From a virus, in IMG/VR virus record IMGVR_UViG_3300037502_003155, positions 1 through 64,000 of that record: a stretch of DNA of 64,000 nucleotides. One strand, written 5' to 3'. The stretch's first letter is position 1. Each line of letters opens with the position of its first letter. Of this stretch, positions 7,120 to 64,000 are shown one piece after another. A program made the translations under genes and the position numbers. The notes beneath the pieces are model-generated. The model was given only the letters and a program-made list of their open reading frames with translations. It was not told the DNA's origin and made no database searches.

Positions 7120-9921
7120 TTAGAACTCCTCAAAGCCATAGTCTTTGAAGTTGTCGGGGTTTAGCCCGGTGTAGTCAGGCGGAGCGGATCCATTCTGGTG
7201 ATGACCATTGGTAGAACCATTCCCATTGGTGCTATGGGGTGGGGATTGATTTTGAGAGATAGGAATAGAGTGCTCTACTTCTCCATTATTTGATTGGTCA
7301 GTAAATCCATTTTCATTACTGACATACTCAAAACCCTTATTCCTCGTATCTTTCAGGGATGTATCAGGCGGTTGGTCAATCGATTGGTCAGCGTCAGTCA
7401 GTGGTTCACTGACCAATCGTAAGCCTTGATGTTCAGGGATTTGAGCGTCGTCAGTCAGTTGGTCAGTAGATTTTGAGCAATGATTTTCAAAAGCGTGGTA
7501 GGTCACGCGCTTGCGACCATTGCTGGTAATGGCCTCCCGAACCTCGCCCCAACCGTTGTCTGCAAGCTCATGGAAAAGGGTTAGACAGAATGCGGCGGGC
7601 TTCATCCCTTCGGCCCGTGCCATCTTGTCTACGCGGCTACCAGCGGGGCCACGGGCAACATCTCTGGGGGTAATGCCCTCGCCACTACAGCAGGCAACCT
7701 CTTGAATTTTGGCCAGGATGCCTTCAACGCCATCGGAAGCCGATGCCCCCATCAGGTAGTAGAAATGCCGTTGATAGTGCTGAGCCATGTGGTAGGCCCG
7801 CGCCATGGTGTCAGAGGTAAGCGTTTGGGTAGCCTTGCTGCGGTCGTAATAGCATTCGATGGCATGAATGGCCATCGCCAATCGCAGGGTGTGCCCAGGC
7901 AGCTTCAGGAGCCACGGTTCAACGTTTCCGCTAGGGGGCTTCTGGTTCAGAAAATCTTCGGCCACCTCGGTAAACAGATCATCGGCCTCTGTCGTGGGGG
8001 TGATGGTTCCCCAGTCCACAGAGTCAATGAATTGGTAGACCTTAGCCAATTCAACGGGTAGCACCGAGGCTCCCTTAAATCGCTTATAGGGAATACGTGC
8101 AGGCACTACGCACAGGCTGCGGCCCAACGTACCGTTAGCGTCTTCCTTGGTTTCAAAGATTTTGGAAAAGATCTTGAGTTGAATGCCGCCCGCTAGCGAC
8201 ATCCTGGACGACTCAACAGCAAAAGAACGATCTTCGTCGGCCCGATCAACCATGATGGCCCCACCGTCCCAGCTTTCCAAAAGCATTTCAGGGCCGTCGC
8301 TGTCTTTGCTGTACTGGGTTAGCCCCTTAAACAGCCCTGCCACCTCATCCCTCACCCACACCATGCCGTTGTTTTCCTGGTCGGCAAGGCGACGCACCAC
8401 GCCCTCAGGGGTACTTTGGGCGACCATCCACCGACGGCACTTGGGCTTTGGGTTTGGGGTGCTATCGTCGCTCTTGTCTTTGGCTTTTGCCTTTTCCTGC
8501 TGCGCCCAGTCGTCAACCCGGAGCTTCCAATTCTCAAACTCTTCAATGTTCCATTTTTCAATGGGGCGCATCACCAGGTTTTTTGCACGGCTTTTCCCGG
8601 TGCCAGAGTCCCCGATCAGAAGGCTCCAAGCGATATTAGGAACCCGGTAGCCCGACATATCTAGCCATGTGTCGCGCCCCATCATGCTCAGCGTGGCAGG
8701 GAGGAGGTAAGCCCAGATCGCCATCGGGTCGATGGAGTTGCGGGCGGCATCCGACCGCGCCATCTTCGCCAGTCGTTCCGGCAACCACAAGAACGGGTCA
8801 AAGCTACCGGGGCTAGTCATCGCCTGCCGGAACCGTGCCCATTCCTGGTCAGTGATCAGGGATTCTTCTGTGTCCTTTTCAGAAATATCATCTTTAGATT
8901 TTACTGACTGACTGACTGACGAGCCGGAATCCTTGCCCTGCCTAGTTTTGAGTTTGTCAGAATCCTCCTGACCAACGGTGACTGACTTACTGACCAATGG
9001 TGCCCAACCGTTCTTCTTAGCCAAGTACCCTAGGGTGCCAAGGCTACGCCCAGAACGCTCAAACCGTGCCCAGCGGTAGGCACAAGCCTTTGCGTCGTAA
9101 TTGGTAGCCCCCTTACTCCAGGACTCCCAATCTTCTAGCAAATCCGGGCTAACGCTGTGCAGCGCCATCCCCACATGCAGCCAGGTGTCATAGTCTGCGG
9201 TGGCAGGAATAGCTGCCAGGTATTCCCGCGCCCAGTCAATATCTGAATATCCCTTATAGGATTTCGCTGACTGACTGACTGACGAGCTAGCTGACGAACC
9301 CTGCCTAGACTTGGGTTCATCAGCCACGCTCTGACTAACTCTGACCGACTCGCTGACTTGCTGACTGACTAGCATTTGCTCAATCATCCACAGCGGAGCA
9401 GTGGTGATGGACTCAGCATCGTAAAGCCACTTGTAGCCAGCCGTAGCAGGGTGCGCCCCCATGACGATGCTTTGGCACCCATCCCAGCGAAACTCTAGCT
9501 GCTCAGGCTTGCCATCCTCGCCAAAAGCCCCGGTCGGCACCTTGTGAGTTTGGATGCCTCCCCAAAACATCTCAGGCACACGGTAAACATACTGCGCCCG
9601 ACCAGCGCGCCCGCTGGAAATCACCAAGGTTGATGGCAGGGCATTATCGACCGATTCCCCAGACAACTGCTCAATCAGCGCTGTGCAGCTAGGGCCATCA
9701 TGATCCACGAACAGCAAACCGCCCGACGGTGTGCCACAAAGAACACCCACGGCATGGCAGCGACTAGCCTTAACCTCTGCTCCAACCTGATCCTTATTCA
9801 GCGGATTTTTTTGCCAAGCCTTTTGATAGGGCTGTTTCTTCCGTCCACAGGCGACCAATCCCCACTGCTCAGGGAGTAGATCCAAATTGATAATGCCAGC
9901 CTTCAAGGTTTCGTTGTTCAT
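7120..9921 (-). CDS. PrimPol-PriCT-DUF3987 primase-helicase
   Basis: Replication protein of about 930 aa. N-terminal primase-polymerase domain (residues about 1-190, with VDHDG acidic motif), PriCT-2-like domain (about 225-310, DIDWAREYLAAIP...WLHVGMALH), then a DUF3987 helicase with Walker A GDSGTGKS near residue 432. ATG at 9921 is preferred over the frame extension to 9966. The linkers between domains and the C-terminal tail (about residues 200-220, 330-345, 815-855) are Ser/Gln/Thr-rich because they are encoded by GACT tetranucleotide repeats like those in the intergenic islands. Confidence 0.88.
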   Translation of the reverse strand: MNNETLKAGIINLDLLPEQWGLVACGRKKQPYQKAWQKNPLNKDQVGAEVKASRCHAVGVLCGTPSGGLLFVDHDGPSCTALIEQLSGESVDNALPSTLVISSGRAGRAQYVYRVPEMFWGGIQTHKVPTGAFGEDGKPEQLEFRWDGCQSIVMGAHPATAGYKWLYDAESITTAPLWMIEQMLVSQQVSESVRVSQSVADEPKSRQGSSASSSVSQSAKSYKGYSDIDWAREYLAAIPATADYDTWLHVGMALHSVSPDLLEDWESWSKGATNYDAKACAYRWARFERSGRSLGTLGYLAKKNGWAPLVSKSVTVGQEDSDKLKTRQGKDSGSSVSQSVKSKDDISEKDTEESLITDQEWARFRQAMTSPGSFDPFLWLPERLAKMARSDAARNSIDPMAIWAYLLPATLSMMGRDTWLDMSGYRVPNIAWSLLIGDSGTGKSRAKNLVMRPIEKWNIEEFENWKLRVDDWAQQEKAKAKDKSDDSTPNPKPKCRRWMVAQSTPEGVVRRLADQENNGMVWVRDEVAGLFKGLTQYSKDSDGPEMLLESWDGGAIMVDRADEDRSFAVESSRMSLAGGIQLKIFSKIFETKEDANGTLGRSLCVVPARIPYKRFKGASVLPVELAKVYQFIDSVDWGTITPTTEADDLFTEVAEDFLNQKPPSGNVEPWLLKLPGHTLRLAMAIHAIECYYDRSKATQTLTSDTMARAYHMAQHYQRHFYYLMGASASDGVEGILAKIQEVACCSGEGITPRDVARGPAGSRVDKMARAEGMKPAAFCLTLFHELADNGWGEVREAITSNGRKRVTYHAFENHCSKSTDQLTDDAQIPEHQGLRLVSEPLTDADQSIDQPPDTSLKDTRNKGFEYVSNENGFTDQSNNGEVEHSIPISQNQSPPHSTNGNGSTNGHHQNGSAPPDYTGLNPDNFKDYGFEEF

Positions 9922-9969
9922 GGCTACACCCCCTGAAAAGCTAGGGTTGCCACGAAATACAGGCAATTA

Positions 9970-27209: not shown

Positions 27210-28272
27210 CTACATGAGGGATGCTAGCCCCCTGCTCCAGCAGGTGACTGCCTAGGCTATGCCGTGCGGAGTAGGGCACTCGGTCAACGCCCGCCGCTTT
27301 GCAGATCCGTTTCCATGTGCGTTGGGAAAAATCGCAATCATTGATCGGGTTGCCCCGTGGGGTTAAAAATATCAAGTCGTCCGGCTTAGCCCCGGCGGGC
27401 CTCCGGGCGTTCAGCATCGCCACCATGTCAGCGTGCAGTGTCAGTGTCCTCACCTTGTTGGTCTTGGTGCCCTTTCTTTGCCGTGCCCAGCCAGCCGCCT
27501 TGCCATCGGGGGCTCGGGCGAGGGCTTCAGCAATGGTTGCCACACCGCGCTCTAGGTCAATGTGTCGCCACCTCAAGCCCGCTGCCTCGCTAACTCGCAG
27601 CCCCAAGTAGAACAGGGTCATTACAAAATCATGGTAGGGCTCGGTGCAGGGATCAGCCTTGGTGGCATCCAAGAAAGCCCGGATCTGCCCAGCAGTTAGC
27701 GGTGCCCGTTTTGGGTTGGGTTGGCGGCTGGCTTTGATGCGTGGCACGTCTGTCCACGGGTTGGACTCTAAGTGCCCCCGCTGCATGGCCCATTGACCAA
27801 AACTTCGCAGCCTCGATAGATTCTGGTTCGCCACAATGCCCGACTGAGAGGCCCGTAGGCGTTCGAGAAAGGCCGCTGCCTCTTTGGTGGTCACAATGTC
27901 CTTTCCCCATCGCTGTAGATGCCCTAGCAGTGGCTTATAGCTAGCGGTAATGGTTTGGCCGCTGGTGCCGTCCTCCCTGCGATGCTCGATAAATTGCTCG
28001 AACAGATCGGCGGTGGTTAGCCGGGGTGGCTCTGGCTCCGGCTCTGGCTGGGGTTTGTATTTGGCTAGCGTTGGGTCAAACTGCTCACGGGCAATATCAG
28101 CCTGAATCTCGGTGGCTAGTATCTCGGCACGATGGCGGTTGAGGGGGCTATCGGGTAGGCCAATGGCAAGCTGATACGGTCGCCCCTGGTGTGTCCACCT
28201 CAGGCGTAGCATTTCATTTCGCGTTGACACTGACACTGCCCCCCGTTTGTTACGGCGGTTTTTCCTGGGCAT
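27196..28272 (-). pseudogene. Tyrosine recombinase truncated before the catalytic tyrosine
   Basis: 358 aa: basic N-terminus, SAM-like core-binding domain (LFEQFIEHRREDGTSGQTITASYKPLLGHLQRWG), and catalytic domain with LGLRVSEAAGLRW (first Arg), TKTNKVRTL (Lys) and SARHSLGSHLLEQGASIPHVAA (H-x-x-R-type box). The expected LGH...Y tail is absent: after HVAAAT the frame stops, so the nucleophile is missing. The following DNA belongs to the antirepressor frame. Likely inactive unless the missing end is restored by recombination. Confidence 0.82.
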
Positions 28273-28320
28273 GGTGGTTCATCTGCGTTCCTTCTCTGGT
28301 GTTCAGATCCTACCAAGGCA

Positions 28321-28925
28321 CCAGTCAGTAATTTACTGACTAACTGACAAAAGCCCAAAACCATTGAAGCGCAAAGGGTTTGGAGTTCTGTCAGCAACCC
28401 CAGTCAGTGAACTGTCAGCACCAGTCAGTAGAGCACTGACCAATAGAAATCCTTACGCAGCAAGGCTTTGAGGGGGACGAGTCAGTAAGTCAGTGAAATC
28501 CTTATATAGATATTTAAAATATCCCCCCCTAAAAGATCCCAAAAACTCTAATAGTTTTTGGCTCAACATCTCAATTTTTACTGACTTGCTGACTGGGATA
28601 CCTCAAACCCTTATATATCAAGGGTTTGCATTAGTCAGTGGCCTACTGACTTGTACTGACTGGCCTGCTGACAAATCCCCATACAAAATCTAGAAAGCTA
28701 TATACATCAATACTTTTAAGGATTATTCTATTCACTGACACTTACTGACTGGTCTACTGACAAATCCCCCTTTACTTCTCATTCCCATCACCATCAATAA
28801 ATAAATGGTTATCAGATCTATATACCTATAGCTATAGAAGGGCGTTGTATACGGTACACAATAAGGATTGATAGTGATGCCTCTGGTCAATGAGTTGGAC
28901 AGGGATTCACTGACTGACTGCCACG
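28321..28925. repeat. CAGTCAGT / TTATATATC repeat island 1
   Basis: About 600 bp of AT-rich non-coding DNA between the integrase and the RNR, packed with CAGTCAGT/CTGACTGA tetramers, stem-loops such as AACCCTTATATATCAAGGGTT (28606-28627), and a 36-bp block (28487-28522) identical to one in island 2 (47409-47444). A final CACTGACTGACTG lies at 28908-28920. No ORF is convincing here. Confidence 0.88.
28845..28861. promoter_or_regulatory. TTGTATAC-N-GTACACAA palindrome, copy 1
   Basis: TTGTATACGGTACACAA, an 8-1-8 inverted repeat with one mismatch, preceded by CTATATACCTATAGCTATAG. Upstream of the RNR gene; related copies lie at 47778 and 55398. Confidence 0.7.
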
Positions 28926-47235: not shown

Positions 47236-47702
47236 GAGTCAGTGTTCACTGACTGGCTGACAAAACGCCAGAACCGCCACCGCGCAAGGGTTTTGAGCAA
47301 CGTCAATAATCCCAGTCAGTGATTTGTCAGCGCCAGTCAGTACCAGTCAATAGCCTACTGACTGGCCAAAACCATTGATATACAAGGCTTTAGGGTACAC
47401 CAGTCAGCAAGTCAGTGAAATCCTTATATAGATATTTAAAATATTCCTCCCTGAAATGCCCTAAAGGATAAAAATGTACTACCTATAAAAATAATCGCGA
47501 TACCTCAATTTTCACTGACTTACTGACTCGTCCTACTCAAACCCTTGATATATAAGGTTTTTCACCAGTCAGAGCCTTACTGACTGACACTGACTGACAC
47601 TGACTGGTCTGCTGACAATTCTCCTAGAACCCTTGATATATAAGGCTTTCCATTAGTCAGTAGTTACTGACTGGTTTTACTGACTTGGATTATTGACTGA
47701 GA
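47236..47702. repeat. CAGTCAGT / TTGATATATAAGG repeat island 2
   Basis: Same architecture as island 1: CAGTCAGT tetramers, CCTTGATATATAAGG stem-loops at 47542-47556 and 47633-47645, and a 36-bp block identical to island 1. AT-rich DNA with no convincing ORF from 47177 to 47909. Confidence 0.88.
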
Positions 47703-47777
47703 TAGCTTCCCTCTAATCCAAAGATGGAAGTAAATATATCTACTAAGAGTTATTTATCTATATCTATAAAGAGCGCA

Positions 47778-47794
47778 TTGTATACAGTACACAG
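47778..47794. promoter_or_regulatory. TTGTATAC-N-GTACACA palindrome, copy 2
   Basis: TTGTATACAGTACACAG, preceded by TTATCTATATCTATAAAGAG. Same orientation as copy 1 relative to the repeat island. Confidence 0.7.
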
Positions 47795-47909
47795 TCAGTT
47801 TTCCGCAGATCGGCCAGTGGTGTTGGCGCTGACTGACTGGGCAGCAAAAAGCCCCACCGTGGGGCGGGGCTGGTCAGCGGGCTTTTGAGGGGCAGTGGTG
47901 CGGGCTGGG

Positions 47910-53192: not shown

Positions 53193-54107
53193 CTAGCGAC
53201 GTTTGCCGTAGTTGTCTTTGTTGGCCGTCAACGGGGTAGCAAAATTGTTCATCCGCCGTTCCCGATCTGCCGCACCCGCATCCATGGCACGGCCACTGGT
53301 AGCGGTGCCCAGCACGAGGCTCAACTCATCGGCATAGCCAGAGTCAGAACGACGGCTAGGGGCGCTGTGTTGGCCCATGGCGTCGTCAACAATGGCGTCG
53401 TAGAGGGCTTGGATGTAGGGATCGCTGGCATCGTCCCGGTACAGGTTGGGGCGCTTTTGCTCGACCACAAAGCGGCGAATGTCGGCAGCATCGTCGATGG
53501 CATCCATCCGCAGATCGGAGAAGTCAACGCCAATGGCCTCAGCTTCGCGAATAACTTTGACCATTTCGACAGCATCAGACCGGACAGAATCCTTCTTAGA
53601 TTTCATGTCCTTTTTGGTCTTCTTAGACTTGGCGGGGGCGGGCATCTCGTCCTCGTCCTCGTCCATATACTCTTCGTCTTCGTAGTCTTCGTCCTCGTAG
53701 TCTTCCATATCATCCATGTCTTCGACGTATTCCTCGTCTTCCTCCATGTCCTCTAGGAAGGCAGGCATCTTGCCTTTTTTCTTGCCCTTGCCATCTAGGC
53801 GCACATAGCTATCGCCACGCCATGCAATGTCGGCATCCTCTAGCAACGATTCGGCCTGGTCTAGGCGGTCACGCAGGGCTTCGATCATGCCGTCCTTGTA
53901 CTGAACTTGCCCTTGAACATCGCCTAGGGCCGATTCGGCGCTATCAGCGCGATCCTCAGCCTCTTCTAGCTCAGCCTCAAGACTGTTGACGGCAGAGTCA
54001 TTGCGGGCCAGTAGGGGAGAGATGGTGTTGAAAACATCTTGGGGCACCTGAACGGAGCCACCAGGAAGATTCAAAGTTGCCAAAGGCATATATCCGTTGG
54101 TACTCAT
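53193..54107 (-). CDS. Internal-start scaffold product of the DUF2213 gene
   Basis: In-frame ATG at 54107 with AGAGGA six bases upstream, better than the TTG start of the full gene. Product begins MSTNGYMPLATLNLPGGSVQVPQDVFN and contains the coiled coil (residues about 45-105) and acidic region, the composition of a scaffolding protein. Resembles the lambda C/Nu3 nested protease-scaffold arrangement. Confidence 0.6.
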   Translation of the reverse strand: MSTNGYMPLATLNLPGGSVQVPQDVFNTISPLLARNDSAVNSLEAELEEAEDRADSAESALGDVQGQVQYKDGMIEALRDRLDQAESLLEDADIAWRGDSYVRLDGKGKKKGKMPAFLEDMEEDEEYVEDMDDMEDYEDEDYEDEEYMDEDEDEMPAPAKSKKTKKDMKSKKDSVRSDAVEMVKVIREAEAIGVDFSDLRMDAIDDAADIRRFVVEQKRPNLYRDDASDPYIQALYDAIVDDAMGQHSAPSRRSDSGYADELSLVLGTATSGRAMDAGAADRERRMNNFATPLTANKDNYGKRR

Positions 54108-54755
54108 GGTTTCCTCTTGGGTAAACAGATTGGAGTATGGTGGCTCCTGTGCTTTAACCTGATAAGCCAGGTCGTTTTCTTCCAAATCAGCGCTATCAAA
54201 GCGACCTAACACCTTCACCGAGGGGCCTGCTCGACCCATCCGAGTAAGGGCAATGTGGTTTACCTTGATGTCTCGCTGAATGGCGTCGTAGCGTTCGCTT
54301 TGGCCTGTGGCAGGGTTAAACCACACCCCAGAGGTTTCCTCGATTCGGCACTTATAGCCCGCGCTAATTTCGGAGGCATCCCCGCGATGCACCGCATCCT
54401 GGGCATCGCGGCTCATCACCGCAATTTGCCCCGTTACAAAACCACCCTTCCCAGGCACAACGACGTACCGAGGGGTTTGCAACGAAATGCCCTTTCGCAG
54501 CCGATCACCGTTCGACTCATCGACTAACCCCGTGGGATGTTCGAGGGTTAGCGAGGCTAAGCCAAATTCGGCAATGGACTTTTGGTTCTCCTCAGGGGGC
54601 CGAAATTCGCGCCGTGTTTTGCCGCCCGGAGCTTTATACTCCAGTACCCCATCCCGGGCAAAGATGGCATCACACAACAAAATCCCGTCATCAGTACGAT
54701 GCGGGTTCAGAACTTGGCCGCTATCAAATCGAATCGCCAAAGGAACACTAGCCAA
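53193..54755 (-). CDS. DUF2213-type protein with nested scaffold-like C-terminus
   Basis: TTG start at 54755, 520 aa. N-terminal 190 residues have the DUF2213 pattern (TDDGILLCDAIFARDGVLEY..., LTLEHPTGLVDESNGDRLRKGIS, DASEISAGYKCRIEETSGVWFNP...), a family in the protease/maturation position of many phages. Then a coiled coil, a very acidic stretch (DEDYEDEEYMDEDEDE) and a basic one. See the internal start entry. Nucleophile not identified by eye. Confidence 0.72.
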   Translation of the reverse strand: MASVPLAIRFDSGQVLNPHRTDDGILLCDAIFARDGVLEYKAPGGKTRREFRPPEENQKSIAEFGLASLTLEHPTGLVDESNGDRLRKGISLQTPRYVVVPGKGGFVTGQIAVMSRDAQDAVHRGDASEISAGYKCRIEETSGVWFNPATGQSERYDAIQRDIKVNHIALTRMGRAGPSVKVLGRFDSADLEENDLAYQVKAQEPPYSNLFTQEETMSTNGYMPLATLNLPGGSVQVPQDVFNTISPLLARNDSAVNSLEAELEEAEDRADSAESALGDVQGQVQYKDGMIEALRDRLDQAESLLEDADIAWRGDSYVRLDGKGKKKGKMPAFLEDMEEDEEYVEDMDDMEDYEDEDYEDEEYMDEDEDEMPAPAKSKKTKKDMKSKKDSVRSDAVEMVKVIREAEAIGVDFSDLRMDAIDDAADIRRFVVEQKRPNLYRDDASDPYIQALYDAIVDDAMGQHSAPSRRSDSGYADELSLVLGTATSGRAMDAGAADRERRMNNFATPLTANKDNYGKRR

Positions 54756-54772
54756 ACGCTATTAGCGCTACT

Positions 54773-54819
54773 TTGACAAAGGGCTTTCTAAATTGGATAA
54801 AATTAGCGAAATACGCAAA
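54773..54819 (+). promoter_or_regulatory. Promoter with 17-bp element over the start of the XRE gene
   Basis: TTGACA (54773-54778), 17-bp spacer, GATAAA (54796-54801), then TTAGCGAAATACGCAAA (54803-54819) overlapping the predicted start of transcription. The classic position of a repressor operator. A CGCTATTAGCG inverted repeat lies at 54758-54768, between this promoter and the leftward TTG start. Confidence 0.75.
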
Positions 54820-54827
54820 ATCGGGAT

Positions 54828-55271
54828 ATGCCACTAACCCGCGAAGAAGAATTAGGGATTATCAGAAACAAGTTGGTGCGACTCGGAATCCTCACCGATA
54901 CCGATACCGCCCACAACCTTGCACTCCTAGAAAGCCACCTGGTACGAGCATTGGCTGAGCACAATGAGAAGATCAACCCCTACGAACGGGTCGGCAAAAT
55001 CCTGCGCCACCATCGGGAACAACGCCTACAGATGCCTCGACACATTGCGGTAGCGAGGGCAAACCGTATCCTCCATTCATTGGGAGACCAAGGCATCTGT
55101 CATCAATCTGCCCTCTGCCACATGGAGGCAGGCACCCAGCGGATCTACTACCTCCAAGCCTTGGCCCTCGCTGATGTCTACGGCATTCCCTACGACGGTC
55201 TACTCCCCCCAGGCTACGACCCTGAGCTAGGACTGACGGATTGGGACGACGCCGCACCAGACCTAGGCTAG
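54828..55271 (+). CDS. XRE-like regulator, candidate master repressor
   Basis: 147 aa, divergently transcribed among the head genes. Residues 55-125 (VGKILRHHREQRLQMPRHIAVARANRILHSLGD, then CHMEAGTQRIYYLQALALADVYGIPYDGLLPP) match a helix-turn-helix of the XRE type with a C-terminal helical extension. GGGA directly precedes the ATG. Its promoter is covered by the 17-bp element found before most virion genes, so it probably represses or activates all of them. An alternative GTG at 54876 would shorten the N-terminus. Confidence 0.7.
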   Translation: MPLTREEELGIIRNKLVRLGILTDTDTAHNLALLESHLVRALAEHNEKINPYERVGKILRHHREQRLQMPRHIAVARANRILHSLGDQGICHQSALCHMEAGTQRIYYLQALALADVYGIPYDGLLPPGYDPELGLTDWDDAAPDLG

Positions 55272-55291
55272 GCAACACCACACGATGACAC

Positions 55292-55317
55292 AGCCCCGAC
55301 CAGGGGCTTTTCTTTTG
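55292..55317 (+). terminator. Terminator of the XRE gene
   Basis: AGCCCC GACCA GGGGCT followed by TTTCTTTTG. Confidence 0.8.
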
Positions 55318-55320
55318 CCT

Positions 55321-55963
55321 TGAGTCAGTCAGCACTGTCAGCACTGTCAGCAAAACCCTGACAGACCACCTTAACCCCGCAGTCCGTGGAAAACTCTTTG
55401 TGTACTGTATACAATCCCTCTATATATAGATATAGATAAATCTTCTAATAGATTTTTATTTATCTATCTCCATTGGTGGGGGTAGATTTAGGGGGATTTG
55501 TCAGTAAAAAAATAGTTTTGTCAGTGCCTAGTCAGTGAATTGTCAGTAAAGGTGTTTAAGAAAGAATCCTTATATATCAATGCTTTCAGGTTTTTGGTAG
55601 GGGATTTGTCAACAAGTCAGTGAATTTTGAGGGTTAGCGCAGAAAACTATAGAGGCCACAAAAATACCCCCTGAGGAAAACCTAGGGGGTGATGGAGGTA
55701 TCTAGTGCGTTTTTGAAATATACCCCTAGGTTTTTACTGACTTGCTGACTCGTCCTGCTCAAACCCTTGATATATAAGGATTCTTGGTACTGACTAGCCA
55801 CTGACTAATCACTGACTAGTCACTGACAAATCCCTTTTTTACTGACAAATCTCTTTTTGCTTTGAAGCGTGAAGCCCTTACAGTATAAGGTTTCTGGGCA
55901 ACGATGGGGATAAAGTTTGATGCGTTTTAGCCAAGTCAGCGTTTTACTGACACATCTCCTGGC
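55321..55963. repeat. CAGTCAGT / TTGATATATAAGG repeat island 3
   Basis: 640 bp of non-coding AT-rich DNA with CAGTCAG tetramers, CAAACCCTTGATATATAAGG (55760-55779) and a block (55731-55780) nearly identical to island 2. No convincing ORF. Confidence 0.88.
55398..55414. promoter_or_regulatory. TTGTRTAC-N-GTAYACAA palindrome, copy 3
   Basis: TTGTGTACTGTATACAA, inverted orientation relative to copies 1 and 2, followed by CTATATATAGATATAG. Lies at the left edge of island 3. Confidence 0.7.
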
Positions 55964-55981
55964 TGACTGGCAGCGCCCTCG

Positions 55982-56413
55982 CTACCCTCGCAGGTAGTCC
56001 GCCATGATTTGCTCAATCTCGGCTCGGTCTTCATCGGATAGCCCGATGAACTCCCGCTTAACCTGCCCCTGGCCGTTCTGGTGGTAGGTCATGTAGGCCA
56101 GCGGCGTCCCCACTGACACGCTAAACCGATTGGCCTGGTAGTTGATGGAGGCCCGACCCGTCCCGGTGTCCTGGAGAATCTTGTCAATGCGCCCCTTGGC
56201 TCGTTTGATGGCACGGGTTCGGGGGCTAATGTCTTCCCAGTGCACCCCCATGGGGTCTACTTCTTTCTCAAAGCGTTCATCGGTGCTGAGTAGTAGTGCT
56301 TCCCCGATCTCTCTCATGGGGGCTGAGAACCCCCGCAGACGCAACAATATGCCCACGATGTAGCGGCGTAGGTCTTTGTCTAGGTAGGAGATGGATAGGA
56401 GTGGTTTGGCCAT
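55982..56413 (-). CDS. Mu gpG-like virion morphogenesis protein
   Basis: 143 aa: APMREIGEALLLSTDERFEKEVDPMGVHWEDISPRTRAIK, then LQDTGTGRASINYQANRFSVSVGTPLAYMTYHQNGQGQ, matching the phage virion morphogenesis (tail completion) family. TAATG overlap with the upstream gene. Confidence 0.85.
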   Translation of the reverse strand: MAKPLLSISYLDKDLRRYIVGILLRLRGFSAPMREIGEALLLSTDERFEKEVDPMGVHWEDISPRTRAIKRAKGRIDKILQDTGTGRASINYQANRFSVSVGTPLAYMTYHQNGQGQVKREFIGLSDEDRAEIEQIMADYLRG

Positions 56414-56541
56414 TAGGTGACGGCCCCCGATGGAATACCTGGATCATAGTCTTCGACCTGGCTATCCCCTACGCTCTCCGGTTGCCAGCCGTTGAGCATA
56501 AACAGGGCATAGTCAAGGTCTATAGCGGTGGTGCGCTCCAC
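56413..56541 (-). CDS. Small protein between MuF and MuG genes, 42 aa
   Basis: GTG start at 56541, two bases after the large upstream stop, overlapping the next gene as TAATG. VERTTAIDLDYALFMLNGWQPESVGDSQVEDYDPGIP; the frame is open upstream and continues coding-like (KATGAFGHTFD). A frameshifted extension of the upstream protein is possible. Confidence 0.45.
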   Translation of the reverse strand: MERTTAIDLDYALFMLNGWQPESVGDSQVEDYDPGIPSGAVT

Positions 56542-56542
56542 A

Positions 56543-58291
56543 TCAAAGGTATGGCCAAAGGCACCGGTAGCCTTGGAGGGAGGAGTCGGTGCGGTTGGGT
56601 TTCTTTTGTTGGCGCTTGAAATGCTGTAGTTGAGTAAATAGCGAGTTGCCCCAAAAGCTTCCTTCGCCGCCTAATATTTTGTCCGCCGCAGCAATTCGCG
56701 CCATCACCGTCCCCTTCCCTACCTGAAGGTTTGTGGCGATCTGCTGAGCGCTAAGACCTTGTGCTGTCAGTCCTAGTACGTCTTTGTTGAGAATGTCTTT
56801 GGCAAACTCTTTTAATTCGCCAACCTGCTTATCTGTAAAAGGAAAAGCATTCTCTTTCACCCTCGCCTTCTGCCCCTTAGCCTCTTTCACCGCCCGCTTA
56901 AGCTCAGCCCTAGCCTTAGACTTTTCAACGGTGCGATCCAAAGCGGCTCTAGGGGTTTGCCTAGCTTTCTCTGGGCTGCATTGCTTCCCCCTAGGAATCC
57001 AGCCATTTCCACACGCTACCCCTTGCCCCCGTTGGTCAAAGCGGTTGTGCATCACATCTAGGTAGCCTTGAAGGAAGGCATCAGCACGGGTATTCTTCGC
57101 TTCCTGGGCCTTCCATAGTTGATCCATAATCCAGTTGTAAGGCCGTTCCCCGTTGGCGTCCTCTGTGCCAATGGTCTGCATTGTCTTAAGGGTCTTTCTT
57201 AACTCTGGATGCGAAGCCGCTAACAACGTCCGTTCTCTGCGTTCAAGCTCATCCCTAGAATATCCGTCTGAGGCTTGGTCAAGTTCAGCTTCAGGATCCC
57301 ATTTGGTGTATTTGTTGAACGCTTTGCGTGCATCAGGGTTAGCCGCAACTTGCTTTAAGTCGTCCCGTGCATCGTCATACCCTGCCAATTCCTTAGGAGA
57401 GTATTCAAACAACTCCATCACTTCATCAAAGTCGCCTGAGTCAATGCCCTTCAACTGTTGAGCGAGATCCTTAGCCTTAGGAAAAGCTTCAACCTGGCTC
57501 AAGTCGCCGCTTTCTATGGCAACCCTCAGCACTTCTTTGGCCGCATAGGGGTCATCGCCAAATGCCGCATATTGATCGGCTAGCCGTAGCGCATTCTGGG
57601 TCTTAGCTAGGTCTTTCTTGACACTAGCAGCGGACGTTTCCGTTGCTAGCTCTAATACTTCCTCTGGCTCATCCAACTGCATCAGATCAGACAGAAATGC
57701 CTGGGTATCCTCAGTGGGGGTATAGGGGTAATCCCGCTCATCTGGTTCCTGCCCTGCCCCCGTTGATTCCCATTGCTCTAGGTCTTTTTCGTAGCGCTCA
57801 TAGTTAGGATCGGCCAAGACCTTTTTAACGTCGGCTTTTGCTAGTGTCTCCCCAGGATTATTCACCCGGCACACATAGGCTTGGCTGATATGACTACCGC
57901 CACACTTTTGCCCCCGTGCTGCCTCCCCCTGGTCAAACCGCCATACCCCATGTTGGTTCAACGCTTCCAGGATAGTTTCAAACTCAATGACTCCCCCCTG
58001 CTGGTAGCGCTTGCGAATATCCCGCAGCAGTGCCGATAGCTCAGGGCGCATATCCGCCGATTCTTCCGCCGCCTCATGGAGGTGCCCTATCGCCAATAGC
58101 TTGTGCTCTGGGTAACCTGCCTCAGCTTCCCCCATTAGCACCAGGGCAGCGCCAAGGTGTTTCTCCACGCACTCCATGCAGGATGGCCGTACCGAGTCCA
58201 TCCGCATCGTATCGGCATACCCCCACACAAACTCCGGGGGCGTATCCAGTGGCAACCCATATCGGGACGCAAGCACAACAGTAGACGGCAT
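56543..58291 (-). CDS. Multi-module head protein with CX10C modules (copies 4 and 5)
   Basis: ATG at 58291 is chosen (58 bp from the 17-bp element). About 582 aa. N-terminus MPSTVVLASRYGLPLDTPPEFVWGYADTMRMD is a degenerate module, followed by SCMECVEKHLGAALVLMGEAEAGYPEHKLLAIGHLHEAAEES, a domain known near MuF genes. RGQKCGGSHISQAYVC is one CX10C copy; near residue 443 a full copy follows: DAFLQGYLDVMHNRFDQRGQG then VACGNGWIPRGKQCS. The C-terminal HTH-like segment (LTAQGLSAQQIATNLQVGKGTVMARIAAADK) suggests DNA binding. Confidence 0.65.
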   Translation of the reverse strand: MPSTVVLASRYGLPLDTPPEFVWGYADTMRMDSVRPSCMECVEKHLGAALVLMGEAEAGYPEHKLLAIGHLHEAAEESADMRPELSALLRDIRKRYQQGGVIEFETILEALNQHGVWRFDQGEAARGQKCGGSHISQAYVCRVNNPGETLAKADVKKVLADPNYERYEKDLEQWESTGAGQEPDERDYPYTPTEDTQAFLSDLMQLDEPEEVLELATETSAASVKKDLAKTQNALRLADQYAAFGDDPYAAKEVLRVAIESGDLSQVEAFPKAKDLAQQLKGIDSGDFDEVMELFEYSPKELAGYDDARDDLKQVAANPDARKAFNKYTKWDPEAELDQASDGYSRDELERRERTLLAASHPELRKTLKTMQTIGTEDANGERPYNWIMDQLWKAQEAKNTRADAFLQGYLDVMHNRFDQRGQGVACGNGWIPRGKQCSPEKARQTPRAALDRTVEKSKARAELKRAVKEAKGQKARVKENAFPFTDKQVGELKEFAKDILNKDVLGLTAQGLSAQQIATNLQVGKGTVMARIAAADKILGGEGSFWGNSLFTQLQHFKRQQKKPNRTDSSLQGYRCLWPYL

Positions 58292-58348
58292 GGGACATTC
58301 CGCGAAACTGTCACCAGTCTGCCAAGGGTGCGGGGGCATGGCTTAGCG

Positions 58349-58365
58349 TTTGCGGAATGCGCTAA
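58349..58365 (-). promoter_or_regulatory. 17-bp element TTAGCGCATTCCGCAAA
   Basis: 58 bp before the 58291 ATG, overlapping the preceding stop codon. Confidence 0.85.
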
Positions 58366-59564
58366 AACAGTTTGCTCAAGAACCCTTGCAAGTTCGGCTC
58401 ATACTTTTTGATGGCCTCGTTCAGATAGGTCTGCCGATCTCGGCTACCGTAGGGGGTTTCCGCATTGAACGGTGTGTCAAAACCCTTTTCAAAGATGGTT
58501 TTGGGGTCGGGTGGGTCGGTTAGGATTTCGATGCCCTTGCGTTTGGCCCCGTCTTCAGACATAGAGAAGATGGCACAGCGACACCCCCAGCCAGCCGGAA
58601 CTCTGCCCGCCCTCCAGAATGGGTCATCGGCATAGATCGCTTTGTTGTGCAGCGCTTTGTGGTGGTCACGGGGCTGGGGCGAATCACGCCACCGCCAGAC
58701 CCACAGCGGGCGACGCACCAACACCGATGGTTCCCGCATCTGCTGATACCGTCCGGCCCCCATGGCCCCCCTGAAGTTGGTATCAAAGATTGTCCAGATG
58801 TGGCGGGGGTTGGCAGGTTTCCAGCCCTTGCGGCCAATCAACCTAGACCACGACTTTTCAAAGTCAGCAAAGCTCATCCCCTCGGTAACGGCCTGTTCCA
58901 CCAACCACTTCGCAGCCTTAATCAGGTCAGCCTGGGCCATCCTTGCCACCACAAAGGCCCAATCGTGAAAGTCTGCGGTAAGTTGCTGGTAGGTCTCCGC
59001 TGGTAGCGCTACCTTAGCCCTGAAATAATCCACGGCCTCCTTGAACGGCAACTTAAGCCATGCGGGCTTAGCCCTGCCATCAAAGCGCACCCCGTCGCCA
59101 TCGTCGCCCTCATCTAGCACCTGTTCCCGCCCTGCCAAGTTAGCCAGCACCATGCCCTGGTAAACCTCCCGCTCTAGGCCACGGTAGGGCAGTCGAGTAA
59201 ACAATTCCCCCGGTTGCATGGAGATGCGTTGTAGGGCCGCTTTCATGTCCCCTTGCGCCAGAATCCAGGCTAGAGTACGTTTCTGCCATTGCTCCATGAT
59301 GGGCTTCACATGAGCCAAGCTACGTTCCCTCAGCCATCGGCCAAGGGCATCGGGGTCATCCCCGGCATCGTGGCGCAGGTCATCCCCTAGCCAGCCATCG
59401 CGGCGTAGCTTGGCCCCCGTCATCGACTCCACCGCAAACAGGGCCAAGGCTCGGCCCTCGGCTACCAGTGCCGATTCATCGAGGGAGTCTAGGCGGGTGG
59501 GGGTGATTCTGGGGTCAGCAATGCCGATGAGAGCGGCGTAAAATTCAGCTTCGGTTAGGTTCAT
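58362..59564 (-). CDS. Mu gpF/SPP1 gp7-like minor head protein
   Basis: 400 aa. C-terminal MuF domain: GAMGAGRYQQMREPSVLVRRPLWVWRWRDSPQPRDHHKALHNKAIYADDPFWRAG, then PAGWGCRCAI, matching the conserved H-x-x-L, D-x-F-W and GWGCRC positions. MuF proteins line the portal region and are often ejected with DNA. Overlaps both neighbours by 4 bp. Confidence 0.87.
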   Translation of the reverse strand: MNLTEAEFYAALIGIADPRITPTRLDSLDESALVAEGRALALFAVESMTGAKLRRDGWLGDDLRHDAGDDPDALGRWLRERSLAHVKPIMEQWQKRTLAWILAQGDMKAALQRISMQPGELFTRLPYRGLEREVYQGMVLANLAGREQVLDEGDDGDGVRFDGRAKPAWLKLPFKEAVDYFRAKVALPAETYQQLTADFHDWAFVVARMAQADLIKAAKWLVEQAVTEGMSFADFEKSWSRLIGRKGWKPANPRHIWTIFDTNFRGAMGAGRYQQMREPSVLVRRPLWVWRWRDSPQPRDHHKALHNKAIYADDPFWRAGRVPAGWGCRCAIFSMSEDGAKRKGIEILTDPPDPKTIFEKGFDTPFNAETPYGSRDRQTYLNEAIKKYEPNLQGFLSKLF

Positions 59565-59947
59565 GGGCGCGTCACCTTCATACTTAATCCATCCTGATAC
59601 CCCTGCAAAAATGCGCTATCAGGCCGATACCGTTCCTTTTGGCGGTTGGCCCTAGCCAATATCCCTTGCACATCCTTGTAGTTTTTAGGCACCTTCTCAC
59701 CCCATCTGCGAAACTGCATGGCGGCGGGTGTGGGCATTCCCTTGTCATCCACCAACGGATCTTTACGGCTGAGGATCTGCGCGGCCTTTCGACTGTTGAA
59801 CTTAGCCCGATCCCACTTATCGCCATCACTGGCCCCTGTGGCCTTCCGCACGGGCTTACGCACCGCACCGCTGCCCTCGTTATACTGGGCCATCTTGCGA
59901 TTGGTGCGACGGTCGTAGGCGGCGTAATGTTCGGCTAGGGTGGTCAT
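59561..59947 (-). CDS. Small head protein ending in a partial shared module
   Basis: 128 aa between portal and MuF genes. Basic, then ends RPDSAFLQGYQDGLSMKV, a truncated version of the module's FLQGYxDGMRxD half without the CX10C half. Role unknown. Confidence 0.6.
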   Translation of the reverse strand: MTTLAEHYAAYDRRTNRKMAQYNEGSGAVRKPVRKATGASDGDKWDRAKFNSRKAAQILSRKDPLVDDKGMPTPAAMQFRRWGEKVPKNYKDVQGILARANRQKERYRPDSAFLQGYQDGLSMKVTRP

Positions 59948-61608
59948 TGTGTTAGCTCCTGATACCGTCTATCCCGCCACGCCACTGCATAGCGGCTAGG
60001 CCAAATCACAAACCTCTGCTGGGCTTCCTGGGTAGCGATGGCGAGGGCATCCAACCGCACCGAGTCACCCCTTGCTCCCTCCAATACCTCAAGGCTCATA
60101 TCCTCTTCTTCGGGGGGCAGTGCCTCATCAACAAACTCCCCATCATCCACGGGGGCATCCTCAAAGCCCTCTTCGGGAATCCCCTCATCCATCGGCATCT
60201 CCCCTTCCATGCCCCCGGCCTGTTGTTGAGCCGCCTGGAATGCCTCATCATCCAGCGTCGTTTCAAAGCTGAACGATGCCCCTCCAAAGCGCGATTTCCG
60301 TACCTCTTCGGGCACCAATACCCCCGCCTGAAGGTAAACGCTATCGGTCTGGGCTTGGCTGCTACGATTGGCAATCTTTTCAGCTTCGGTCTGCTCTAGC
60401 AGTGGGTTGAATGCAATACTCCATCCCTCCAGTGGCTTGCCCCCGGTGGGGCCGTCCTTGGCTAAGAACATCAACTGATAGATTCGGTTCAGCGCTGCCA
60501 AGGGCCACCCCTCTTGGTAGGCTCCCACCTTCTTAGCCCAAGTCTTTTCCTCACTTTCCCCAGTTGCCCCAAGGCCGCTAGGCGACTCGCCAAAGAGGAT
60601 GGTGTGGGGAATCCCCAGGGCACCGATCAGCATATCCCGGTAGCTGCTAATCAGGTCGTTCAGCCCTGAGAACTGGCGAGACACAAAGTTAACCGATTCC
60701 TCATCCTTATCCAGCACCACCCCGCCCATCATCGAGGCCATCATTTGGAGTGAGGTAATGCGCTGACGAATCGCGGCTTCATTGCCTTCGGTCATCATGT
60801 CGCCAAAGCCCGCCACCTGGTAGACGAACAGGCTATAGTCTTTCACCAGATGCTCAACCCCCCTGGTCATCGACTCCCAAGCCGAGAACTGATCCCAGAC
60901 CACCTCTAGCAATGACCGATCCCATCCGTTGTTGTAGCGCATCACTTGCGGGGGCACGGGTATCCCCGGCACACGAATCACGCGACTGCGGTGGATAGGA
61001 TAGCTTTGGCTATACCCTTGCCCAGAGAATCGCCCTTGAAACATACTGACCAAGCCAGGATGCCAATCAGGGGTAATTTGCAGATGGTAATGAGTGGTCT
61101 TCAGTGGGTTAGCAATGGCGGTTTGACCGGGGTAAAGCTGAAAGCTGTCGAGGACTTCAATCTCGCGGATCGTCTTGATGTTGGCTGTATCGATGGGTTC
61201 ATGGGGCGGTCTGCCATCGTCCACGTTCAGCACAATCGCGGCACCTCGATACACATTGGCTAGATACCCTGCCCATCGAATAATTTCTCGGTCACTCGAT
61301 AGAGGTTGGTCTCTCAGGTCAGAATCCTTTGTGCGCGTACCCACCACGTTACGGTACACCTCAAAGGCCGTCTTTACCTTGTCGCTCACCCCTTCCGGCC
61401 ATGAGATTTCCCAGCCCTTAGCCGTGGCGGCATCAGGGTAAGCGGTACACGCCACATTTAGGGGCCACACCTGACACAGTTGGTCTAACTGCCCCTGCCC
61501 TAGGCGATGAACAGCTCCGACCTGGGTATACAGGGTGCTATCTGAGGCTGTCCCTAGCCCCGTCAGGGCATTGATGAGAACCCCGTCATTGCGGATTACG
61601 TCAGACAT
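59944..61608 (-). CDS. Portal protein (DUF1073-type)
   Basis: ATG at 61608 is preferred over 61620 (59 bp from the 17-bp element). About 554 aa. Family features: LDQLCQVWPLNVACTAYPDAATAKGWEI, VVWDQFSAWESMTRGVEHLVKDYSL, GLNDLISSYRDMLIGALGIPHTILFGESPSGLGATGESEEKTWAKKV, all DUF1073-type portal patterns. Acidic C-terminal tail, then RGDSVRLDALAIATQEAQQRF. A leader hairpin (AGCCCC...GGGGCT nesting ACCCCT...AGGGGT) precedes the start. Confidence 0.88.
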   Translation of the reverse strand: MSDVIRNDGVLINALTGLGTASDSTLYTQVGAVHRLGQGQLDQLCQVWPLNVACTAYPDAATAKGWEISWPEGVSDKVKTAFEVYRNVVGTRTKDSDLRDQPLSSDREIIRWAGYLANVYRGAAIVLNVDDGRPPHEPIDTANIKTIREIEVLDSFQLYPGQTAIANPLKTTHYHLQITPDWHPGLVSMFQGRFSGQGYSQSYPIHRSRVIRVPGIPVPPQVMRYNNGWDRSLLEVVWDQFSAWESMTRGVEHLVKDYSLFVYQVAGFGDMMTEGNEAAIRQRITSLQMMASMMGGVVLDKDEESVNFVSRQFSGLNDLISSYRDMLIGALGIPHTILFGESPSGLGATGESEEKTWAKKVGAYQEGWPLAALNRIYQLMFLAKDGPTGGKPLEGWSIAFNPLLEQTEAEKIANRSSQAQTDSVYLQAGVLVPEEVRKSRFGGASFSFETTLDDEAFQAAQQQAGGMEGEMPMDEGIPEEGFEDAPVDDGEFVDEALPPEEEDMSLEVLEGARGDSVRLDALAIATQEAQQRFVIWPSRYAVAWRDRRYQELTQ

Positions 61609-61666
61609 AGCCCCTGCCAAACAGAACCCCTCTACCGTGCAGGATAAAGGGGTCTGCGGGGGCTAG

Positions 61667-61683
61667 TTTGCGAAATGCGCTAA
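61667..61683 (-). promoter_or_regulatory. 17-bp element TTAGCGCATTTCGCAAA
   Basis: 59 bp before the portal ATG at 61608; overlaps the stop region of the preceding gene. Confidence 0.85.
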
Positions 61684-62069
61684 TCATTGAACTCAGGGCA
61701 AAGGTACTCAGGGGCATAGGTGGCTACCGCTGCCATCACCGTTACGGGTTCATCGTCAAGGTATCCATAGTTGCCAATGGTAATATCAACCTGCTCAGAG
61801 GCGATCTCGTCGCGGGTCATGCCTCCCCGCAATTGTTCGCAGTAGCGTTTCCCCAAGGCTACAACTTGCCAGGTTGTCCCGTCCCATCCTTGGTCTTCAA
61901 TGGCGGATAGGGTTTGTCGTTCATATTGTGCCGTTGCGGTGGCTACGGTCGCTTGCTGTCGCACTACCCCGCACATCTCTGCCAGGTTCACTACCGCCCC
62001 CGTGGGAGTCTCCATGTAGCAATAGTGGTCTCCGGTCGCAATCTGGGCAATCAACAATAGTTCAATCAT
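61680..62069 (-). CDS. DUF732-like exported protein
   Basis: 129 aa with a signal-like N-terminus (MIELLLIAQIATGDHYC) and a C-terminal VVALGKRYCEQLRGGMTRDEIAS...AVATYAPEYLCPEF, resembling DUF732 domains with a disulfide pair. Unexpected between portal and tape-measure genes; may be a lysogenic-conversion or surface protein. Confidence 0.6.
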   Translation of the reverse strand: MIELLLIAQIATGDHYCYMETPTGAVVNLAEMCGVVRQQATVATATAQYERQTLSAIEDQGWDGTTWQVVALGKRYCEQLRGGMTRDEIASEQVDITIGNYGYLDDEPVTVMAAVATYAPEYLCPEFND

Positions 62070-62105
62070 GGTGATGGTCTCCTACGTTGCCCCTAGTGTT
62101 CCCCG

Positions 62106-62122
62106 TTAGTGAATCCCGCAAA
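62106..62122 (+). promoter_or_regulatory. 17-bp element TTAGTGAATCCCGCAAA
   Basis: 58 bp before the ATG at 62180, facing the rightward tape-measure gene. C5 of the consensus is T here. Confidence 0.75.
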
Positions 62123-62179
62123 CATCTGACTAGGTCGGCATATTCCCCCTAGCCTAGACCTAGTTTTGACGGTATGGCT

Positions 62180-64000
62180 ATGGCACGGGGCAATGGTGAC
62201 AATTTAGCGGTCAAGATGGTGCTTCAGGCCCAGGACTTGGCCTCCAAGGTATTCGCCAAGGCTCAAGCCCAAATGCAGTCCTTTGGCGACACATCTGAAG
62301 CCGTCTCGCAGCAGATCGCAGAACAATTTGAAGCCCTCACCAAAGAAGCCGAAAAGTTTGCTGAGCAAATCAAGGGGCTAGAGGGTAAGCGGATTCGCCT
62401 AGAACTGAATCAGCAGGACATTCAGGGCAAAATCGCCCAGGTGGATGCTGACCTCAAAAGCCTGAGCGACCAAAAAATTAAGCTTGAGGCCGAGGGTGGC
62501 AGTGCTGAAGAAATTGCCAAGCTTCAGCGCAAGATTGAGGCTCTAAGCCGTACCAAGATCCGCCTAGGGTTGGATGCCGGGGACGTTGAGGCTCAGATTA
62601 AGGGCATTGATGACCAGATTGAGGGGCTGAATGGGAGTATTGCCGGGGTCAAAAAGCGACTCGGCACCGTTGGGGATGACATCAAATCGGCCAATAAGCC
62701 CGCCCGTGGTTTTGGGGAAACGATCAAGGGATTCTCAGGCGCTTTTGACAAGGCGGCTGGCCTTAGCTCCAAAATCTTTTTCATCGGGGAAGCCTTTCAA
62801 CAAATCTCAGGACTCGTTAATGTCGCGAGGGCATCCGTTGCAGGCTTTTACGACTCCTTCATTAATAGCAACGTTCAGCTACAGGAGCAATTGCTAGGCA
62901 CTCAAGCCACCCTCGCCGCCACCCAAGACGTATTTAGGAATGGGGTTCGTATTGAAGACCCCACAGAGGCCATTCAGGCGCTAGAAGCCCCCCTACGCCA
63001 GTCCTTGGCTAACATTCGACGCGATTCATTAGAACTAGTTGGCGTCACTTCGGCTGAACTGGTGCCATTATTCCAGGTTATTGCCCAGGGGACGGGACAG
63101 ATCAACGGCACCCTTCAAGATGCAGAACGGCTAACCATCGACTTTGCCGCCGCATTGGGGACACTCGCTATCCCCGCAGAACAGGCGCGATTTGAGATTA
63201 ATTCAATCTTTCAAGGCCAGATTACTCAAGACTCTGACCTTGCCCAGAGGCTAGGGATTACCAACGAAACAGTAGCCATCTGGAAGGCTCAAGGGAATGC
63301 CGCTGAGGAACTATCAAAACGATTGGCCGCATTCCGACAAGGTAATGCCCTCGCGGCTCAATCCATCGGTGGTGTTACGTCAAACATCCAAGAAATCTTT
63401 CAGGAAGTTACTCGTGTTGCGGGGGAACCCTTACTAACGCCCATCATCCAACAACTAGACCGCTTTTACCAAGCCCTCGCCCTCGCTCGACCCACCATTG
63501 AAGCCACACTAGGTCAGGCTATCAACTTCCTGATTGAGGTTTTTAAACGTGGTGTTGCCGTTGTTGATGCGTTATTGCCATCCTTGGGTCGGCTAGGAAG
63601 TGCCTTGTTTGACGCAGTAGGTAGCAGCGCCCAGGCCGTAGGTGAACTATTTCTCCAGTTGGTGGACGCCGCCGTTACTCTTGCCCCTGCCCTAGGGGTC
63701 ATCATTGACTTGGTTGCAGGGTTGGCTCAACGTTTTGCCGATTTTGCCGAAACGGGGGTAGGAAAAGCAGTCATTAAGATTGTTGCCTTTGGGGCTGTCA
63801 TTGGCACCATTGCGGCGGGCATTGCGGGGCTTGTTGCTCTGTTTGGCGTGGTTGGCCCAGCGATTGCCGGAGTTGCCGGAAGCATGGCTTCTGCCGCCGC
63901 CATTGGTGGGGGGCTTGCCGCTGCCTTTGTGGTACTTCAAAAGCCTCTCACAGCAGTAGGCAAAGCCGTTGGTGGGTTCCTCGTCAATTCGTTTGAGAAG
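62180..64000 (+). CDS. Tape-measure protein (partial, runs off the window)
   Basis: Open from ATG 62180 (or 62174) to the edge, 607 codons without stop. N-terminal 180 residues are a coiled coil (KEAEKFAEQIKGLEGKRIRLELNQQDIQGKIAQVDADLKSL...), then hydrophobic segments later (IKIVAFGAVIGTIAAGIAGLVALFGVVGPAIAGVAGSMAS). Long coiled-coil protein with internal membrane-like helices is the tape-measure pattern. It is rightward while most virion genes are leftward, so at least two late units exist. Confidence 0.85.
   Translation, partial: MARGNGDNLAVKMVLQAQDLASKVFAKAQAQMQSFGDTSEAVSQQIAEQFEALTKEAEKFAEQIKGLEGKRIRLELNQQDIQGKIAQVDADLKSLSDQKIKLEAEGGSAEEIAKLQRKIEALSRTKIRLGLDAGDVEAQIKGIDDQIEGLNGSIAGVKKRLGTVGDDIKSANKPARGFGETIKGFSGAFDKAAGLSSKIFFIGEAFQQISGLVNVARASVAGFYDSFINSNVQLQEQLLGTQATLAATQDVFRNGVRIEDPTEAIQALEAPLRQSLANIRRDSLELVGVTSAELVPLFQVIAQGTGQINGTLQDAERLTIDFAAALGTLAIPAEQARFEINSIFQGQITQDSDLAQRLGITNETVAIWKAQGNAAEELSKRLAAFRQGNALAAQSIGGVTSNIQEIFQEVTRVAGEPLLTPIIQQLDRFYQALALARPTIEATLGQAINFLIEVFKRGVAVVDALLPSLGRLGSALFDAVGSSAQAVGELFLQLVDAAVTLAPALGVIIDLVAGLAQRFADFAETGVGKAVIKIVAFGAVIGTIAAGIAGLVALFGVVGPAIAGVAGSMASAAAIGGGLAAAFVVLQKPLTAVGKAVGGFLVNSFEK

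Follow-up and report, generated by a model that had tools for sequence, protein, structure and literature searches.

Probable replication-origin iterons embedded in the linkers and tail of a viral primase-helicase gene

Why does one short DNA motif recur both between the genes of a virus and inside the linkers of its replication enzyme? The question is raised by a 64-kb stretch of DNA (the window), the first 64 kb of a linear virus record of 76.9 kb in IMG/VR. The host of the virus is probably cyanobacterial: some of its proteins weakly match those of Synechococcus phages, and the relatives recovered point the same way. HIP1 (GCGATCGC) sites number zero in the entire 76.9-kb record. The enzyme, a primase-helicase of 948 residues, is encoded at 7120–9966 on the minus strand. 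It is composed of Prim-Pol (residues 29–193), PriCT_2 (246–316), and DUF3987 (438–740) domains, all above the Pfam cut-off, and matches the PHROG category DNA helicase/primase. Structure models add a winged helix (about residues 745–828) and an unstructured tail (829–948). The enzyme is not of the P4 alpha type, which combines a zinc finger and Toprim primase with a P4/D5 helicase; Prim-Pol and DUF3987 stand in their place. A first-pass annotation had noticed runs of CTGAC at 9267–9283 and 8903–8920, positions that are exact, and had assigned the repeat tracts to two inter-domain linkers and the tail, in agreement with the Pfam domain limits.

ACTGAC (GTCAGT on the other strand) is the most over-represented 6-mer in the window, with 93 copies against 21.9 expected from an order-2 Markov model, so the count that the first-pass annotation had proposed returned a clear excess. 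The longer GACTGACTGAC occurs 4 times in the window, against 0.02 expected. The sites are concentrated: 68 of the 96 in the 76.9-kb record fall within 2,666 nt, made up of three tracts in the primase-helicase gene and three intergenic islands, where the site density is 68-fold. The islands have a GC content of 42–43% with AT-rich blocks and the coding tracts one of 42–49%, compared with 55% for the window; GC skew is uninformative as to an origin. With flanking bases included, the consensus over islands and tracts reads T-N-ACTGAC-T; in the islands, GCTGAC is also frequent (15 versus 2 expected). Sites are repeatedly 8, 10, or 11 bp apart, and about 51 bp separates several adjacent groups.

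To separate DNA from protein, we kept the protein sequence fixed and redrew synonymous codons from the gene's own usage. The primase-helicase gene holds 19 sites against 1.7 expected, and the highest of 5000 shuffles reached 8. Linker 1 accounts for four of them, linker 2 for seven, the C-tail for eight, and the folded domains for none. The sites occupy both orientations, with three frames in one and two in the other. The remaining 43 window genes combined show a mild excess by the same shuffles (25 versus 12.9). Selection on the motif in this gene therefore almost certainly acts at the DNA level, one of two options that the first-pass annotation had left side by side: the motif exceeds what protein and codon usage predict and occurs in several reading frames, in either orientation; as DNA, the tracts can be aligned with the islands; and other DUF3987 genes carry other iterons at equivalent places.

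Linker 1 (residues 200–241; 9244–9369, minus strand) carries GTCAGY iterons and the hairpin GCTGATGAACCCAAGTCTAGGCAGGGTTCGTCAGC (9290–9324, minus strand); the tract folds with a z of −5.2, and an equally good fold appeared in 0 of 200 shuffles. This linker is a diverged duplicate of linker 2 (residues 322–372; 8851–9003, minus strand), an iteron array, with which it aligns over about 114 nt. In the C-tail tract (residues 834–890; 7297–7468, minus strand), iterons flank on both sides a degenerate hairpin, AAATCCCTGAACATCAAGGCTT (7421–7442, minus strand). The hairpins of the tail and linker 2 fold weakly in the window (z about −1.1), whereas the tail of the relative G001 has a perfect 8-bp stem (z −3.7). 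The tail tract had been noted at 7370–7470; it is present there but extends slightly wider and lies mostly in the opposite orientation. Likewise, the AAAACCCTTATTCC reported in it as an island stem-loop arm is found at 7330–7343, although 7421–7442 resembles the island hairpin more closely.

The islands share this architecture. Island 1 (28229–28918), between the integrase gene and a ribonucleotide-reductase-like gene, contains 18 ACTGAC sites, a hairpin at 28609–28628 (minus strand) with a folding z of −4.3, and a palindrome at 28845–28860. Island 2 (47238–47837) also contains 18 sites, with hairpins at 47538–47557 and 47626–47645 and a palindrome at 47778–47793. Island 3 (55324–55966), flanked by two convergent genes, contains 13 sites, several of them 11 bp apart, a hairpin at 55760–55779, and a palindrome at 55399–55412. 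At least one copy each of CAAACCCTTGATATATAAGG and of the palindrome GTATACNGTACACA is found per island, in either orientation. A palindrome similar to GTATACNGTACACA lies in the G001 island, and the element is possibly a regulator site. Island 3 is present in two assemblies, the second being a 9,293-bp IMG/VR record (L049 / L121) that is 99.99% identical to 53804–63096; island 2 has no blastn match in the phage and plasmid collections. When local alignments were scored against dinucleotide shuffles, linkers 1 and 2 matched the window's own islands with z of about 4–6 and the tail, which aligns to islands 1–3, with z of 5–10. Three folded-domain stretches used as controls gave z of at most 2.5.

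The two closest homologues of the protein (in G001 and G002) are about 70% identical over the alignment, and their sites also exceed synonymous shuffles (8 versus 2.0 and 7 versus 2.3 expected); with the looser core RCTGAC, the excess in G002 is weak (8 versus 4.0, P 0.04). It had been suggested that homologous primases might lack the linkers, and that the same linkers in different codons would point to the protein. Linker 1 is indeed absent from both homologues, but the linker 2 tract is present in G001, and the codon excess in genes without linker 1 speaks against selection on protein only. One island was found per relative, compared with three in the window. In G001 (the record of L005), the single detected island can be aligned with linker 2 over 77 nt (z 23), spanning an AAACCC...GGTTC hairpin and its AT-rich flank, and the tail aligns to the same island with a z of 15. 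The G002 gene retains ACTGAC-type sites, whereas the G002 island has mainly GCTGACA, and the two have no 11-mer in common. The G002 gene tracts match the G001 island and not their own, so in G002 the gene sites and the island cannot be said to have evolved in strict concert. A separate hairpin, AAACCCTTGCCCTGCAAGGCTT, lies upstream of the G002 primase gene (L006, 8373–8395) with AACCTGT-type repeats around it.

The window protein and DUF3987 each served as a query against 386 cyanobacterial genomes. In seven sampled genomes, DUF3987 genes carry other repeats in the coding C-tail, and some also in the linker preceding the helicase. GTGACA occurs 8 times (1.9 expected) in the gene of G249, which encodes a 1289-residue protein with a CHC2 zinc finger and DUF3987, and 9 times (1.8 expected) in that of G303; in the roughly 12–15 kb covered around each gene, the sites fall mostly into two clusters, in the pre-helicase linker and the C-tail. 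The tail repeats are GCCGACA in two genes of G392, AGGTGCA in G137, GTCATCA in G076, TGCTGAC in G237, and ATCGACA in G187, where the array extends beyond the stop codon. Simple 7-mer enrichment was dropped as a measure, for 9 of 57 control genes also had z ≥4, with scattered k-mers. A cluster test, devised after this lack of specificity was seen, singled out six genes from five genomes in which 240 nt of the coding tail beyond the helicase hold 7–10 copies of a single 7-mer; none of 107 control ORFs had more than 5 copies (Fisher test, about 3e-4; the denominators are approximate). No cluster is seen in most of the 34 DUF3987 ORFs examined, a majority that takes in every short one without a tail. 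Across all 7.2 Mb of G392, 18 of the 19 dense iteron pairs lie within the two gene tails; the corresponding whole-genome figures are 5 of 9 for G137 and 4 of 7 for G237. The linkers of these enzymes thus appear to be shaped by a DNA signal and not by the protein. Many of the iterons have a TGTY or GACA half in common (TGTCGGC, TGTCGAT, TGTCACC, TGTTCCC, TGTTACT, and TGTTCACC of P4), a similarity that may be due to chance or to a shared mode of recognition. In the open-access library searched, no paper described coding iterons in a DUF3987 gene or an origin within one.

The explanation that we consider probable is that the repeats are replication-origin iterons, bound by the initiator and embedded in its gene, with further copies in the three islands. 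As in the lambda O type, short repeats are clustered in the coding sequence of a putative initiator beyond codon expectation. If a phage regulator had operator or "stoperator" sites dispersed through coding and intergenic DNA, this would account for islands 1 and 2, which lie upstream of genes and share the potentially regulatory palindrome TTGTATACNGTACACA. Such sites are an unlikely source of the pattern, as island 3, between convergent genes, is ill-suited to an operator, 19 sites lie inside the linkers and tail of one gene, and in other lineages, genes of this family have the layout but different repeat sequences. We give no better chance to partition (centromere-like) or packaging sites in place of origins. 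The sites are dispersed, phased, and multi-copy, and the phage encodes a HerA/TraG-like ATPase, which speaks for this reading, but the close tie to a putative initiator gene in several lineages argues otherwise, and no ParB-like protein was recognised among the subset of phage proteins scanned.

The other option of the first-pass annotation, an invading repeat, is right only in that copies of the module have arisen within this phage: linker 1, missing from homologues, duplicates linker 2, and there are three islands where each relative has one. A selfish repeat, multiplying by copying and tolerated only where it lands in linkers, is nevertheless less likely still than operator or partition sites. 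A single invading element is not supported, because the lineages differ in their repeats, which sit at equivalent positions of the same gene family, and because dense pairs lie mostly in the primase-helicase gene in the three genomes searched whole; moreover, no such iteron-hairpin module was found elsewhere in IMG/VR. Selection on the protein for Ser/Gln/Val-rich linkers can be given hardly any credence. Three homologues do conserve some residues of the linkers and tail, but the excess over synonymous shuffles, the use of several frames and both orientations, and the absence of linker 1 from homologues all oppose it.

If the sites are origin iterons, the ACTGAC repeats (core RCTGAC) would belong to a putative origin module arranged as iterons, hairpin, iterons, and AT-rich DNA, and would act as origins. 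The PrimPol–PriCT_2–DUF3987 protein is their most likely binding partner; contact would probably be made by its C-terminal winged helix, which would recognise RCTGAC and then load the helicase. The module inside the gene would be translated as the disordered C-tail and the two inter-domain linkers; linkers and tail tolerate almost any sequence, so a DNA signal can be carried in frame. The three islands may be further origins or origin enhancers. The segment modelled as a winged helix (residues 733–831; 7474–7770, minus strand; pLDDT 84) is positioned directly N-terminal to the tail tract, making it a candidate iteron-binding domain in the model. Its best Foldseek matches are weak and generic (E about 0.01), and many are PadR/MarR regulators. 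A full-length model of the primase-helicase was discarded (pLDDT 33).

Known replicons offer partial parallels. The lambdoid origin sits within gene O, and additional iterons add residues to the protein (PMC7466680). The window resembles it in having origin-type iterons in the initiator coding sequence that lengthen the protein, but O is not a primase-helicase, and the window has three coding tracts, three islands, and a hairpin. In SaPI and SCC elements, iterons directly downstream of the helicase gene are recognised by the C-terminal domain of its product (PMC7581432). SaPI Rep and SCCmec Cch2 are likewise initiator helicases, accompanied at the 3′ gene end by short iterons that are specific to each element; their origin is downstream and noncoding, whereas the putative origin of the window is inside the coding tail and linkers. 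ORF904 of pRN1, a PrimPol-helicase, carries a winged helix at its C-terminus and depends on a stem-loop directly downstream of its gene (PMC4234260), the same combination of enzyme and stem-loop, but pRN1 has no iterons, its stem-loop is large, and its helicase family is described as SF3. In P4, the iterons of crr lie directly 3′ of the alpha gene and occur again in ori1 (NC_001609). P4 alpha is thus also a primase-helicase with iterons, of 8 bp, at two places and in both orientations; it differs in primase type, in its noncoding crr, and in iteron sequence. Each step of the proposed mechanism is displayed, in isolation, by one or other of the cited systems.

Whether cyanobacterial and phage DUF3987 primase-helicases form a class with the origin in the initiator coding sequence, where iterons particular to each lineage, in some cases joined by hairpins, are translated as linkers and tails and copied as modules, is in our estimate evenly balanced, as is the accompanying idea that the hairpin AACCCTTGNTAYATAAGG serves many mobile replicons as a common origin element. 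If the class is real, initiator and binding sites would travel as one gene. On the origin-in-initiator explanation, odd repetitive linkers are translated DNA signals, and sequence by itself gives a route to candidate origins and initiator recognition sites in a large, little-studied class of primase-helicases whose DUF3987 is still annotated as of "unknown function". Several independent iteron-initiator pairs would be available for decoding recognition.

The hairpin AACCCTTGNTAYATAAGG also occurs in other phages, beside different iterons and SF3/VapE/DUF927 helicases. Its sequence had no match in the literature searched. Other short repeats flank CAAACCCTTGATATATAAGG-type hairpins with GATATAT or G(A/C)TACAT loops at 28 of 131 loci, compared with 3 of 77 among the control matches listed, which have the same stem and other loops (P 3e-4; 0.02 after repeat families were collapsed by eye). 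Ten neighbouring proteins were checked, and eight are initiator-type helicases (D5/DUF5906, VapE, and DUF927), the others an integrase and a histidine kinase. A partnership of the hairpin with Prim-Pol or DUF3987 elsewhere was rejected: DUF3987 is present in 1 of 49 records and Prim-Pol in none of the 49, with other initiator helicases instead. The flanking repeats and helicase neighbours suggest that the CAAACCCTTGATATATAAGG-type hairpin is a shared origin element, a point secondary to the main finding. The hairpin AACCCTTG(A/C)TAYATAAGG is found in many unrelated phages (IMG/VR, L044–L119 and L241–L317) with element-specific repeats on both sides, often adjoining D5/VapE/DUF927 helicase genes. 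The same hairpin lies just past apparent groEL 3′ ends in Bacillales, near GCTAACA repeats (L007, L032, L033, and L035), and these loci are possibly attachment regions of integrated elements.
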